Shown here piece by piece: positions 13,334 to 58,932 of a stretch of 64,000 nucleotides of DNA. The translations under genes were made by a program, and so were the position numbers. The stretch comes from Sacculina carcini (Eukaryota; Arthropoda; Thecostraca; Sacculinidae). The notes under the pieces are model-generated. The model worked only from the letters and a program-made list of their open reading frames with translations. It had not been told where the DNA came from and did no database searches. The stretch is from contig OU696590.1 in assembly GCA_916048095.2 (NCBI GenBank), positions 4,810,052 through 4,874,051 on the forward strand. Direction: 5' to 3'. Position 1 is the first letter of the stretch. The number at the start of each line of letters is the position of its first letter.

Positions 13334-13468
13334 CTACTTGTTGCCGCCCAGATGACCGGGAGCGTCGGCGTAGGTGAATTTCAGCCGATAAGCCTCGGCC
13401 ACTAGCAAGCTGATCTCACGGTTGGTCCACTCGTGTGTCGGTAAGTTCTGCAGTGTCAACATCAAACC
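13334..13468 (-). CDS. TBC1D22: TBC1D22 last exon
   Basis: 135 bp, entered in phase 0 after a TG-rich acceptor ending GGTGAGCAG. It encodes the C-terminal helices ([23 protein letters not shown]) and stops at TAG (13336-13334). Length and end point match the vertebrate family. Confidence 0.9.
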   Translation of the reverse strand, partial: GLMLTLQNLPTHEWTNREISLLVAEAYRLKFTYADAPGHLGGNK

Positions 13469-16400
13469 CTGCTCACCACCAAACAAACACACACACACAA
13501 ACGTATAATTATCTATATGAAGAATTATACAAAATACAAAATAAATTTTCATTTATGCCAAATTGGTGTCAGTGGTTGGCGCAGTAAACTTCCTTCAATC
13601 GAGGAAATGTTTACACCCTATATTGTTCGTGTATTCTTTGTAGCTAAATGTTATGAATGAAGAAAATAGAGGGTACGTTTGTGTGTGTGTGTGAGAGAGT
13701 GTGTCAGTGTGTTTGTGAGTGAGTGTGTGTGTGTGTGTTTGTGTGTGTGATGGGTCGGGTTGGTGGCACCTGAAAGTCGCGCTGCGCCATCAGCAGGCGG
13801 CTCCAGTGCGCCAGAAATGCCGCACACACGTACAAGTGGAAGCTGGCGAAGCCGTCCTCCTCGGACAGATAGGTGTCCCACAGCCGGATGGTGCAGTGCA
13901 GGGGCAGCTCGCGCATCAGCACGTTATTCATCCAGCGAAATGCAAACTGCAGGTAGTCGATGCCGTGACCGGCAATGTGCGCGTGCAACGGCGCTACAAG
14001 CACACACACACACACACACACACACGAACAAGTACAGACACACAGACACAAACACACTGAGACGCATACGCGTGAAAACACACACACACACACACACACG
14101 AACAAGTACAGACACACAGACACATACACACTGAGACGCATACGCGTGAAAACACACACACACACACACACACACACACACGAACAAGTACAGACACACA
14201 GACACATACACACTGAGACGCATACGCGTGAAAACACACACACATACATACATACACCCATACACCAATAGATACACACACAAATACAGACACACATACA
14301 GACACACACACACACACACACACACATGTACAAATAGAAATACAGGCAGACGGACACACACCCAGACATACCCATAGACAGACACACACACACACACACA
14401 CATCACTGACCGTCTGTTTTGTGTACGAGCGCGGCCAGTGCAGCCACCTTGTTCTGAATGCCCGGCTGAGCGAAGGTGTAGTTATCCTGGATGCCCTCGA
14501 GCAGTCGCGACATGCTCCAGAACGTGTCGGCCTCAACATCCCGGCGACTGCTGGCCTCCACCTCGTCCAACTGACACTGGTCCACGTCGGCGTCTGACTC
14601 ACACACACACATACACACACACACACACACACACATAAACACACAAAGTGATAGTAGTAATATTACACAAATGTGCACAGTCACGTATTGCACACAACTG
14701 GATTCTATTCTATACTATCCGTTCGACGAAGAGTCATGGCTCGACTAACTGTTTCCTTATTAGTTTGTTTTTGATTTATAAGTTGTATTAAGTTGTTAAG
14801 TTGATATATTTTGGTCAAATGTGTGGCCAAAAATTAAATATGCAAAAATAAAAAATAAAATTTCACATAGACACACACACACACACCTCAAGTATAAGAA
14901 TTATGTGTAGTGTGCAATTGTCAAGTAACGTTTGATTAATAATTGGCCCTGAATATCGATACATATTCTAAATGTACGTCTGAAAGCAGCTCCAGGCGTT
15001 CCCAACAAAAAATGAATGAATTGTTTATGCATAATGACAAATTGTCCGTAAATACACGTCTTACGTCATACACACACACACACACACACACACACACACA
15101 CACACACACACACACACACACACACACACACACACACACACACACACACACACACACACACACACACACACACACACACACACAATCCAGGGTACCAAAG
15201 GTCTCCAACGTGCCGTAAGTCCCGACCATTACGCCCACCTGACCATTAATCCCATGCCACTTTTAAGGTCTAAAATACTAGGTTTTCAGTAGCGGCCTCC
15301 AATAAGCCCACTGAAAATTTGAACTTTTATCCGGTAGCTAACATCGGTAATTGTTTCAGCTAACACCGGTAATTGTTCTGCAAGGACTAATAGGGTTACT
15401 CTTGTGCGATCAGCGATCAGTGCGTATGTTGTATATACGTAGCTGTGTGTACGACTGTATTGAATGTACACGCGTATTAACTTTATAATAATTAAACTTA
15501 TTGACCATATGAAACCCCCTTTTGTGTATTAAAAACGTACCGATCAATCATGAGCATAGATACTGGGGGTATGGGTGGCAGATATACCCCCGAAAAATTG
15601 GCTGGACGTATGAATATGCATGTATACCCTGCTGAGAATTCTGCTGAGTTCAGTTCATTGATTATATTTCCATCGAAATCACCATAGCAAAAATTAACAA
15701 CACAGCAAAAGTGTGTCTATGTATATGCAATTATATGCAATATACTTTTCATTGGTGGCATACGCAATATACTTTTCGTATTGCAATTGACTACGTTCAA
15801 AATGGTTGAGGGTCCCATGTAATTGACGAATTGAGTCAACTTTGAACACTAATGCATGATGACTGTCATCCCCCGAGCCTCCGAGTCACAAACCCTGTAC
15901 ACCCTTGAAATTCAGTATGCTCAGCAACCTGATCATACTGAATTAACACCGTTGCACATGACACAGCTTGGCGTCTTGCTCACCAGAGGGCAGCACCTCC
16001 TGCAGAAAGACAATGAAGTACGGCGTGACCAGGTCGTTCATGCCCTGTACATAGCCGGACGCCGGGTGTCGGATGGCCCAGATGAACAGAATGCGCTCAA
16101 ACATCTCCTGAACACAGCGCTGCTGGAATAACGGAATCAGCGGCGACATGCGCGGAATATCAATGTGAATCTGCCCACACACACACACACACGCGCGCAC
16201 ACGCACACAAACAAATAGCGATACATGCAAAGTGGAAATAATAGCATATGCCACCAAGCGCTGATAAGCGCTGATAAGTGCGATAGTGCTGGTTCAATAG
16301 TGAATGAAGGAGTGAAAACATAGGCTCGCCCTGGAAAACATAATGAAAGATACACGTAATTGGTAATTGATATACGAGATCGTAAACTGGGTTTAAAGTC

Positions 16401-57028: not shown

Positions 57029-57244
57029 ATGCCTGTGGCTGGCGGTGAGGTGGCCATGACTCATTCGGCCGGCCGCAAGTCGTCTGTGATGGCCGTGGCT
57101 GGTGGCGCGGCCACTGGTGGCGCCACCAGCGACGAGCAATCGCTGCTGGTGGCGGCCGACTATGCCGCGGCGGCGGCAGCAGCGGCCGCCGTGCGAGGCG
57201 CTCAAACTCCTCCTGGACTCAACATCAACGTGCTGCATCATCAG
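57029..57244 (+). CDS. Unidentified gene, exon 1 (Ala-rich)
   Basis: 216 bp from ATG to donor CATCAG|GTGAGA, phase 0. GC-rich, with a (GCG/GCC)n alanine tract at 57168-57191. Confidence 0.65.
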
Positions 57245-58932
57245 GTGAGATCTCCACTCTGCCAGTTGAAAGAATGGACATTGCAGCAGCAAAGGCGTTG
57301 CTTTTGTACGTCTCTTGTTATCCTGAATATGTTGTGTCTGTGTTGGGTGAGGTTGGCACCTGCGTAATAGTCTGACAGCGTGGTAGCGTGCGTGTTATTA
57401 AGACTGAGCAAACGTACAAACACAAGGCGTGCTAACATTCAGAAGAGATCGTATCGGGGGATGGAATTTCGGGGGATTGGAATTATATTACGAGTTTGCC
57501 TGTGTATATTCGTGTTACTACATGCTGACCCATATACGTTTGTGTATATGGGTTGCACAATGTGCGTTGACATTGATTATCGCTTTACATTGGTGTGGGA
57601 CTACATTTGGTTACGAGACATTCGAGCGTAGTATCGCTTTTCAATTGCAGTGTGTGCTATCACGCAGTTGGCCACCGCCCTGACTACACGTAATGCCGAC
57701 CTCCAAGCTTGTCTAGACGGCGAGTTGACTTGCAAACATGCATTGCTGTTGAGAAAATGTAAATTGTTCTGTTGAAATGTGCTGGAAAACAACTAAGTGG
57801 TTTAGTGAGATGAAAAGGGAATGAGTTGATTGACTAGGAAAGTGTGGAGTGAGAGAGTTGACCTGATGGTGGTTGGTCGAGAAATTTGAGGCATACGAAC
57901 TGAAGGGATATGTAAAGTTGAAGTGATCAAGGATGTTTGAAGTGAGTAATTTCGTAATATGTAATGGGCTGAGGGAATGGAGGAATGAATGATTGGAAGA
58001 TCTTTAGTTGTTTGATTGCTGTGTCGTGGAAGCCATCTCGCTAGTGGCATGGAACGTCGCATTTTATAATTGACAAAATACATGTTCGGTTCTCGTAAGA
58101 GTGGTGGTCTCGAATAGCCCTCGGTATACTTGTGACTTGTTGGACAAACCCTTGACTGGGTTTTTTGGTTTCGGATTCTGAGATCTGGTTGGATAACCGT
58201 AGTTCGTTTTTACATAATTTCATTGCTGAATTGTTGTGTTGTTTGATGTCACATTTTCAGTAGTCAGAAGACTATGGTCGATTGTGAAGCCGCCATATTT
58301 CAACTGCCAATTCCTTCTGTATTGTGAACGTTTGCCTATGGGGCATCCCGAAGCCATGTCATGTCGTTTGGCGGACGTTTTGTGACTACCGTGTGCATGT
58401 GGGTGTATGAACGTACGCTAGGACGCGACGTTGTTCGGCATCGGCAGCGGCGGCACCGGTGGCAGCGTCGGTAGCAGCGGCGGCGGAGTATCCAGTCGTC
58501 AGTCCTCGCCGCCCGTGCTCAACCTGTCTCCTGGCCTTAACCCGGTGACGATGGACACCCGCCAACGGCTCTCGCCTGCCGACTACGATACTTCGGCAAC
58601 GGGTACACACACACACACACAGACACACACACACACACACACACACACACACACACACACACACACACACACACACTGGCTTCGACAGCGAGTCAGCCTC
58701 GCGGTAGCCCGCGGCAACACGGCAGCCTTAACGATGACCTAGCCCACGGTATGTTATACGTTGTGTGTTTGGCCTTTAAATATATTGTTGTTTGAAAAAA
58801 AAACACACACACACACACACACACGTCGAACACACACATTCTGTAGTTGCATGGTCGCAGGCAAACAATACTCAACAGACTTAAGCGCATTAAGTAATGG
58901 CGCTCAGCAAGCCAAGCAAGCGTTTAACGTTG
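57029..58932 (+). CDS. Unidentified gene, first four coding exons
   Basis: Four GT-AG exons agree in phase: 57029-57244, 58422-58602, 58689-58748 and 58861 to about 58932. The protein starts MPVAGGEVAMTHS, has an alanine run (ADYAAAAAAAAAV), then a Gly/Ser-rich part (GIGSGGTGGSVGSS), then PPVLNLSPGLNPV, RLSPADYDTSATG and SPRQHGSLNDDLAH. It looks like the disordered N-terminus of a regulatory protein (transcription or RNA-binding factor), but no domain identifies it. GC is well above the flanks. Later exons were not found in 59-64 kb. Introns 2 and 3 are only 86 and 112 bp and consist mostly of CA repeat. Confidence 0.65.
58422..58602 (+). CDS. Unidentified gene, exon 2 (Gly/Ser-rich)
   Basis: Acceptor TACGCTAG, phase 0 in, donor G|GTACACACAC, phase 1 out. 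Reads DATLFGIGSGG to ADYDTSAT. Confidence 0.6.
58689..58748 (+). CDS. Unidentified gene, exon 3 (60 bp)
   Basis: Acceptor (CA)nCTGGCTTCGACAG, donor CACG|GTATGT. Phase 1 at both ends, matching neighbours. Reads ASQPRGSPRQHGSLNDDLAH. Confidence 0.55.
58861..58932 (+). CDS. Unidentified gene, exon 4 (3' edge uncertain)
   Basis: Acceptor GCATGGTCGCAG in the required phase. Reads KQYSTDLSALSNGAQQAKQ. A donor may be G|GTGGAG at 58933 or further on; the frame stays open to 58982. Confidence 0.4.

Follow-up and report, generated by a model that had tools for sequence, protein, structure and literature searches.

Introns of the ordinary U2 type begin with GT, end with AG, and carry before the AG a polypyrimidine tract that is treated as near-universal in the animal splicing code; in most animals C stands beside T in this tract and G is scarce. 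At CFTR exon 9, a (TG)mTn element linked to TDP-43 lies right before the acceptor of a single weak, regulated exon and includes a T-run. AC/GT bridging introns of zebrafish and lamprey, reportedly described by Lin et al. (Genome Res. 2016), carry (AC)n after the donor and (GT)n before the acceptor on the sense strand. Passages of two papers state that these repeats pair and replace U2AF2 (PMC7404189, PMC6093180). The text on PUF60 in the latter reports that the human protein prefers UG, a TGTGT pentamer being bound better than T5, and raises a possible role for it at zebrafish GT introns (PMC6093180). For the larvacean tunicate Fritillaria, part of another report describes duplication of U2AF2 alongside new 3' splice sites (PMC13326754). 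A first-pass annotation of 64,000 nucleotides of the Sacculina carcini genome (assembly GCA_916048095.2, contig OU696590.1, forward-strand positions 4,810,052 to 4,874,051; this whole stretch is referred to here as the window) had noted TG and CA microsatellites directly at splice sites in several unrelated genes on both strands, and we have followed that observation within the window and in further genes of the same genome.

We found that CA runs after donors and TG runs before acceptors are a sense-strand rule in the sampled genes: of 111 introns placed by homology, 44 have a TG run at the acceptor and 2 a CA run, and at the donor 21 have a CA run and 5 a TG run (a run being at least 8 nt of TG or CA on the sense strand, and an end zone the 60 nt next to the splice site). 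The pattern is real and strong in these genes, and its layout, which is that of the zebrafish and lamprey AC/GT introns, is partly known. The twist that is likely new is that the tract is itself UG-rich and that the two intron ends are apparently independent. A literature search, which covered open-access papers only, turned up no animal described as having a general UG tract and, given that coverage, is weak evidence of novelty. Together these sequences suggest a partial shift of the splicing code in this lineage. A genome with three times as much G as C in the tract would be a natural test of acceptor recognition by U2AF-type proteins, of the need for a hairpin in AC/GT introns, and of the ways in which core splice sites can accommodate unstable microsatellites. 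In practice, such genomes would probably be misread by gene finders and splice predictors whose training rests on C/U tracts.

The intron set comprises 96 SLC6 introns (14 paralogs, 10 contigs), 11 DPYD introns, and 4 introns of TBC1D22, a gene of the window, so that all-gene figures span 16 genes; the sampled loci cover just under 300,000 letters of a genome of 264 Mb in 43 contigs. The genome also contains Hedgehog-domain exons, whose known distribution points to an animal of higher than sponge grade. The spliced aligner demands GT (or GC, penalized) and AG and has no tract preference, and should therefore neither favor nor disfavor TG. From 134 SLC6 introns aligned in the 14 genes, 33 at unshared positions and 5 shorter than 160 nt were excluded, as were the gene fragments g6x and g30a; 2 of the remaining 96 share their position solely with a gene fragment, which leaves 94 when fragments are disregarded. 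DPYD came from one of five random 10-kb loci (5 of 60 drawn), and residues 3-771 of its predicted peptide match pig DPYD; human TBC1D22B guided the alignment in the window. As interior controls we used 1,226 60-nt windows from 76 SLC6 introns longer than 420 nt for run counts and 1,213 such windows for run lengths in the tract. We also used an ab initio exon model, which was trained on SLC6, so that its check on SLC6 is in-sample.

Of the 96 SLC6 introns, 38 have a TG run among their last 60 nt and 4 among their first 60 nt; for CA the counts are 20 in the first 60 nt and 1 in the last; the interior windows contain TG in 102 of 1,226 and CA in 49 of 1,226. Relative to interiors, the odds ratio is 7.2 for TG at acceptors (P = 4e-15) and 6.3 for CA at donors (P = 1.5e-8). 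Equal TG/CA density throughout introns, which had been named beforehand as the outcome that would count against the idea, is thus not the case in SLC6. The enrichment persists when fragments are excluded (TG 36/94, CA 20/94; odds ratios 7.0 and 6.4) and for positions common to at least three genes (TG 34/85, CA 18/85; odds ratios 9.0 and 6.8). Runs of AG, CT, or AT occur in 0 to 3 of the 96 introns per end, too few for a pattern. In the 41 SLC6 introns of at least 800 nt, run coverage has its maximum 20-40 nt inside each end and drops steeply by about 100 nt, with a CA tail to about 240 nt; the TG runs at SLC6 acceptors stop 2-52 nt before the exon, all but two of the 38 at 28 nt or less. All four homology-supported TBC1D22 introns carry a TG run in their final 60 nt; CA lies near one of the four donors and TG near one. 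The 11 DPYD introns have two TG acceptors, one CA acceptor, and no CA donor, indicating that the number of arrays varies by gene. Ab initio junctions outside SLC6, with overlaps removed, form a small set that includes TBC1D22 and DPYD exons: TG occurs at 9 and CA at 2 of 26 acceptors, and CA at 3 and TG at 1 of 28 donors; outside the window the corresponding counts are TG 5 and CA 2 of 15 acceptors and CA 1 and TG 0 of 18 donors. Three intronless SLC6 genes lie close together (C10:4867615-4885553) among otherwise intron-rich paralogs; in their flanks the run closest to the coding sequence lies about 300 nt off, although three neighboring copies are a weak control.

Acceptors of these genes differ from the usual animal pattern in base composition as well. 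Between -25 and -5 the frequencies are T.442, G.303, A.154, and C.100 (n = 111), with bootstrap ranges over the 16 genes of.262-.342 for G and.077-.123 for C, and 15 of 16 genes have more G than C; in DPYD the values are T.47, G.32, A.12, and C.10. The mean longest pyrimidine run is 2.9 nt at the 38 SLC6 acceptors with TG runs, 4.4 nt at 58 without, and 4.3 nt in interiors, whereas the mean longest T/G run is 19.6, 7.0, and 5.3 nt, respectively; the longest T run at TG acceptors averages 2.1 nt. A pyrimidine-rich, G-poor tract before the AG was therefore found neither in the composition of the 111 introns nor in the pyrimidine runs of SLC6, which are about as long as in interiors or shorter. 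In the 43 SLC6 introns whose first and last 100 nt are free of runs, the frequencies at -15 to -4 are T.42-.43, G.26, and C.13-.14, and the five most enriched 5-mers of the 57 introns that lack a TG run in the last 100 nt are TGGTG, TGATG, CTCTC, GTGGT, and ATGTT. Because acceptors without arrays are also U/G-rich and C-poor, with pyrimidine runs like those of interiors, the TG arrays appear to be a UG tract carried to its extreme. The suggestion that TG stands in for the polypyrimidine tract is borne out by these figures, also beyond the window, as the short pyrimidine runs at TG acceptors, the longer T/G runs where arrays are absent, and the DPYD tract all attest.

In two other respects the sample matches the ordinary U2 type. 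The donor matrix of the introns resembles AG/GT(G/A/C)AGT, a U1-like consensus, and their ends are GT-AG, which is partly assumed because the aligner required GT or GC and AG; the C/U tract is the feature that does not match. A U2 small nuclear RNA (snRNA) copy, one of at least 46 matches, has the canonical branch-binding stretch GTGTAGTA. We note that 43 equal-score U2 snRNA matches, of at least 46 in all, lie in C20:6.20-6.43 Mb. Simple scans of the introns brought out no strong branch-point motif.

The signal between the branch point and the AG is probably a UG-rich rather than a C/U tract, with (TG)n as its extremes, read by U2AF2-type proteins, and with the two intron ends independent of each other. 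What points to this in the sample is that U and G dominate the tract, that pyrimidine runs show no gain at acceptors, that the arrays lie where a tract is expected, that the introns can be placed with GT-AG ends, and that the U2 copy has its usual branch-binding stretch. Long (TG)n arrays would be extremes of the UG tract grown by slippage and would work as the tract does. Of the 39 introns whose last 100 nt contain a TG run, 12 have one of at least 24 nt; this length is relevant to the pUG-fold quadruplex, which passages in two papers say requires at least 12 UG repeats (PMC12636285, PMC12276007). The readers would be G-accepting UHM proteins of the U2AF2 type, namely either or both of the U2AF2 paralogs, perhaps joined by PUF60. 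At the other end, acting separately rather than as half of a hairpin, CA after donors would be both tolerated and favored: TG there would supply decoy GT donors, and CA-binding proteins of the hnRNP L kind could aid the donor.

Candidate readers are present in the genome. Two U2AF2 genes lie about 1.9 kb apart in opposite orientation (C26:1032223-1036658), each a single open frame over the matched part. Their last 115 residues (314-428) are identical, and the DNA there is 98.5% identical over 398 bp; in contrast, identity is 53-87% in 30-residue windows across RRM1 and RRM2 and 30% in the linker. Both proteins have H at the position of the N in human FNLVKD, a residue that presumably contacts RNA in human U2AF2. 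An identical UHM next to diverged RRM1-RRM2 is the pattern that gene conversion of the UHM would leave; conversion may thus have kept the UHM alike and left the RNA-binding half free to diverge. For U2AF1 there is a single close match, split into three pieces on C21, along with one distant relative. We favor a reading of the UG tract by protein. It is also conceivable, more tentatively, that the general 3' splice signal moved from C/U to U/G along with a split of the U2AF2 pair, in which the RNA-reading halves diverged while gene conversion kept the docking halves alike, and that the two paralogs read different classes of acceptors; such a division would explain why acceptor types cluster by gene and not by intron position. 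The S. carcini pair resembles what part of the Fritillaria report describes, duplicated and differing U2AF2 paralogs alongside unusual intron 3' ends, but differs from that account in that GT-AG introns can be placed, U2AF1 has one close match and a distant relative, the U2AF2 UHM DNA is near-identical, and the tract composition has changed (PMC13326754). Likewise, the human PUF60-dependent 3' splice sites, as presented in passages of PMC6093180, have a UG-rich segment upstream of the acceptor that is used by a U2AF2-like UHM protein; they belong, however, to some exons only, whose signal is bipartite, with a UG and a C-rich part, whereas in our sample the UG is general and the C-rich part is absent.

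The layout and polarity of the zebrafish AC/GT introns, equal to those seen here, raise the alternative that 5' (AC)n pairs with 3' (UG)n of the same intron, joining the two sites and making U2AF2 unneeded. The ends of the window intron at 13469..13769 are paired in its predicted fold (z = -4.41 versus shuffles); those of the intron at 17605..17917, whose upstream exon is unproven, also pair, but with z = -0.88, which is not beyond shuffles. Across the sample, ends neither co-occur nor co-vary beyond chance. Duplex energy between the 5' and 3' ends of the same intron averages -27.8 kcal/mol versus -28.0 for permuted partners (P = 0.56, n = 96), and unlike in zebrafish and lamprey introns, complementary repeats show no tendency to share an intron: the odds ratio for a CA donor with a TG acceptor is 1.43 (95% confidence interval 0.55-3.7; P = 0.47, n = 111), no excess appears at 60, 100, or 150 nt or with 80-nt zones, and an across-exon test gave an odds ratio of 1.9 (P = 0.39). 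TG acceptors also outnumber CA donors by about 2:1, and acceptors that lack arrays are UG-rich too; the pattern can be explained without a hairpin. The ends seem to act independently rather than as parts of one hairpin, and after the duplex permutation, co-occurrence, and across-exon tests we dropped bridging as the main explanation and consider it unlikely; since the confidence interval leaves room for a modest effect (up to about 3.7-fold) and two window introns fold end to end, it may add to some introns.

Nor is it probable that abundant TG/CA arrays are merely tolerated where they do least harm, with TG lost near donors as a source of decoy GT sites and drift operating elsewhere. The supply of arrays is high (80 TG/CA runs versus 5 of other dinucleotides of at least 12 nt in the window), TG is rare at donors, and stretches free of AG are favored before acceptors; avoidance of AG in the tract is supported for Drosophila in part of one study (PMC10946897). 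Avoidance alone, however, would not raise TG about 7-fold over interiors, and CA, which is equally AG-free, is nearly absent at acceptors (2/111), which avoidance leaves unexplained; moreover, acceptors without arrays are UG-rich too, and passive tolerance would leave TG acceptors with no recognizable tract. The annotation had cited CFTR exon 9 as an example of splicing modulated by TG repeats. On a reading of that kind, UG arrays would mark exons repressed or activated by UG-binding proteins such as TDP-43 or CELF-type factors. A TDP-43 N-domain (PF18694) is indeed present at three places (C29:895365-895583 and, two in opposite orientation within 1 kb, C26:5886003-5886991), one of them with the start of RRM1 and a 60-residue exon piece that matches human TDP-43 (E 3.7e-16), and the TG repeat stands right before the acceptor as it does in CFTR. 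Unlike the single weak exon of CFTR, the exons here are many, lack a T-run, and are core exons of conserved proteins, which are expected to be included; UG richness extends to 15 of 16 sampled genes, and the known TDP-43 cases are mostly repressive. We therefore regard such regulation as quite improbable as the general explanation.

Several observations weigh against a general UG tract. At SLC6 acceptors without arrays, G is raised only at -15 to -4 (.26), being.20 at -25 to -16 versus.21 in interiors; CTCTC is among the enriched 5-mers; C exceeds G in the SLC6 gene g7b; and g37, g7b, and g25 have no TG acceptor at all. Acceptor type clusters by gene (in 2,000 permutations, 0 for G minus C and 1 for TG runs). 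Outside SLC6, CA donors are few (0/11 in DPYD, 1/4 in TBC1D22, and 1/18 among ab initio donors outside the window), so the CA-donor half of the pattern is mainly based on SLC6, and CA donors are not significantly weaker than others (P = 0.20). Finally, junctions rest on homology alignment or the ab initio model, and 96 of the 111 introns belong to one family. As for the clustering, acceptor type shows no association with intron position (P = 0.635), which argues that it was not simply inherited from an ancestral gene. We considered the regional supply of arrays as its cause and rejected it: rho was 0.02 for interior TG and 0.39 for TG plus CA (P = 0.17).

Donor CA, in contrast to the acceptor types, does not cluster by gene (P = 0.64). 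Enhancer proteins that bind CA, hnRNP L among them, are known to work close to donors; help of this type, together with avoidance of TG decoys, may account for the pattern. Compensation for weak donors was tried as an explanation and set aside, the direction being right but not significant (P = 0.20 and 0.13). As a separate matter, position +3 of the donor is C in 22% of SLC6 matrix introns and GTCAGT donors are common; C at +3 is unusual at such a frequency.

In the window, a list of exact runs of at least 10 nt (46 TG and 68 CA) places the arrays where the first-pass annotation had located them. Spliced alignment to TBC1D22B puts exon starts at 16170, 14597, 13993, and 13468, and the ab initio model puts exon starts at 16170, 14593, 13993, and 6946 and exon ends at 3306, 13770, and 58602. 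Thus, of the five TBC1D22 acceptors proposed, those at 16170, 13993, and 13468 agree with homology, 14593 is ambiguous by 4 nt, and 17604 is chained to the gene by the ab initio model; the distance from TG run to exon at the five is 5 to 18 nt, as claimed. The SLC6 acceptor at 6946 has ab initio support, and the translation of the exon that starts there resembles, by eye, the last SLC6 helix region. Among the three donors said to run into (CA)n, 3306 stands (the intron position is shared within SLC6, and the ab initio model agrees), 17918 is putative, its upstream exon lacking homology support, and 58602 is backed by the ab initio exon alone. Two of the "three separate genes" are accordingly proven, SLC6 and TBC1D22; the third consists of that one ab initio exon, and no Pfam domain was found in the three plus-strand frames of 56000-63999. 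Coordinates are collected in Table 1.

Table 1. Introns, arrays, and a candidate exon in the window that bear on TG and CA repeats at splice sites
Feature	Positions	Strand	Evidence
SLC6 intron, 3048 nt; donor GTTTAA then (AC)n at 3312-3595	3307..6354	+	Spliced alignment; position in second SLC6 gene; ab initio exon end 3306
(TG)10, ending 5 nt before SLC6 exon start 6946	6921..6945	+	Array list; ab initio acceptor
TBC1D22 intron, CA repeats near donor and TG repeats near acceptor	13469..13769	-	Spliced alignment
TBC1D22 intron, sense-strand TG repeats at both ends	13994..14410	-	Spliced alignment; repeat list
TBC1D22 intron, (TG)n acceptor; acceptor 14594 or 14598, donor 15996 or 15983	14594..15996	-	Spliced alignment; ab initio
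TBC1D22 intron, (TG)n acceptor	16171..16932	-	Spliced alignment to TBC1D22B
Putative TBC1D22 intron, donor (AC)n and acceptor (TG)n; upstream exon without homology support	17605..17917	-	Sequence
Ab initio exon of a candidate gene; donor leads into (AC)n at 58605-58676	58422..58602	+	Ab initio; arrays

The window also holds other repeats that resemble acceptors. About 133 copies of TGTGTCAG lie at 12245-13308, just past the 3' end of TBC1D22, and the plus-strand unit resembles a tiny TG-plus-CAG acceptor. Within the SLC6 intron of Table 1, about 12 copies of a 24-mer made of a TG tract and TGTGTCAG (5113-5405, sense strand) form a row of acceptor-like units. An unbroken (TG)265 occupies 55254-55783. 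Retroelement open frames are present at 37177-41105 (minus strand; a protease/reverse transcriptase/integrase plus zinc-knuckle frame) and, as two reverse transcriptase pieces, at 19512-20345 and 30514-31542 (both plus strand).

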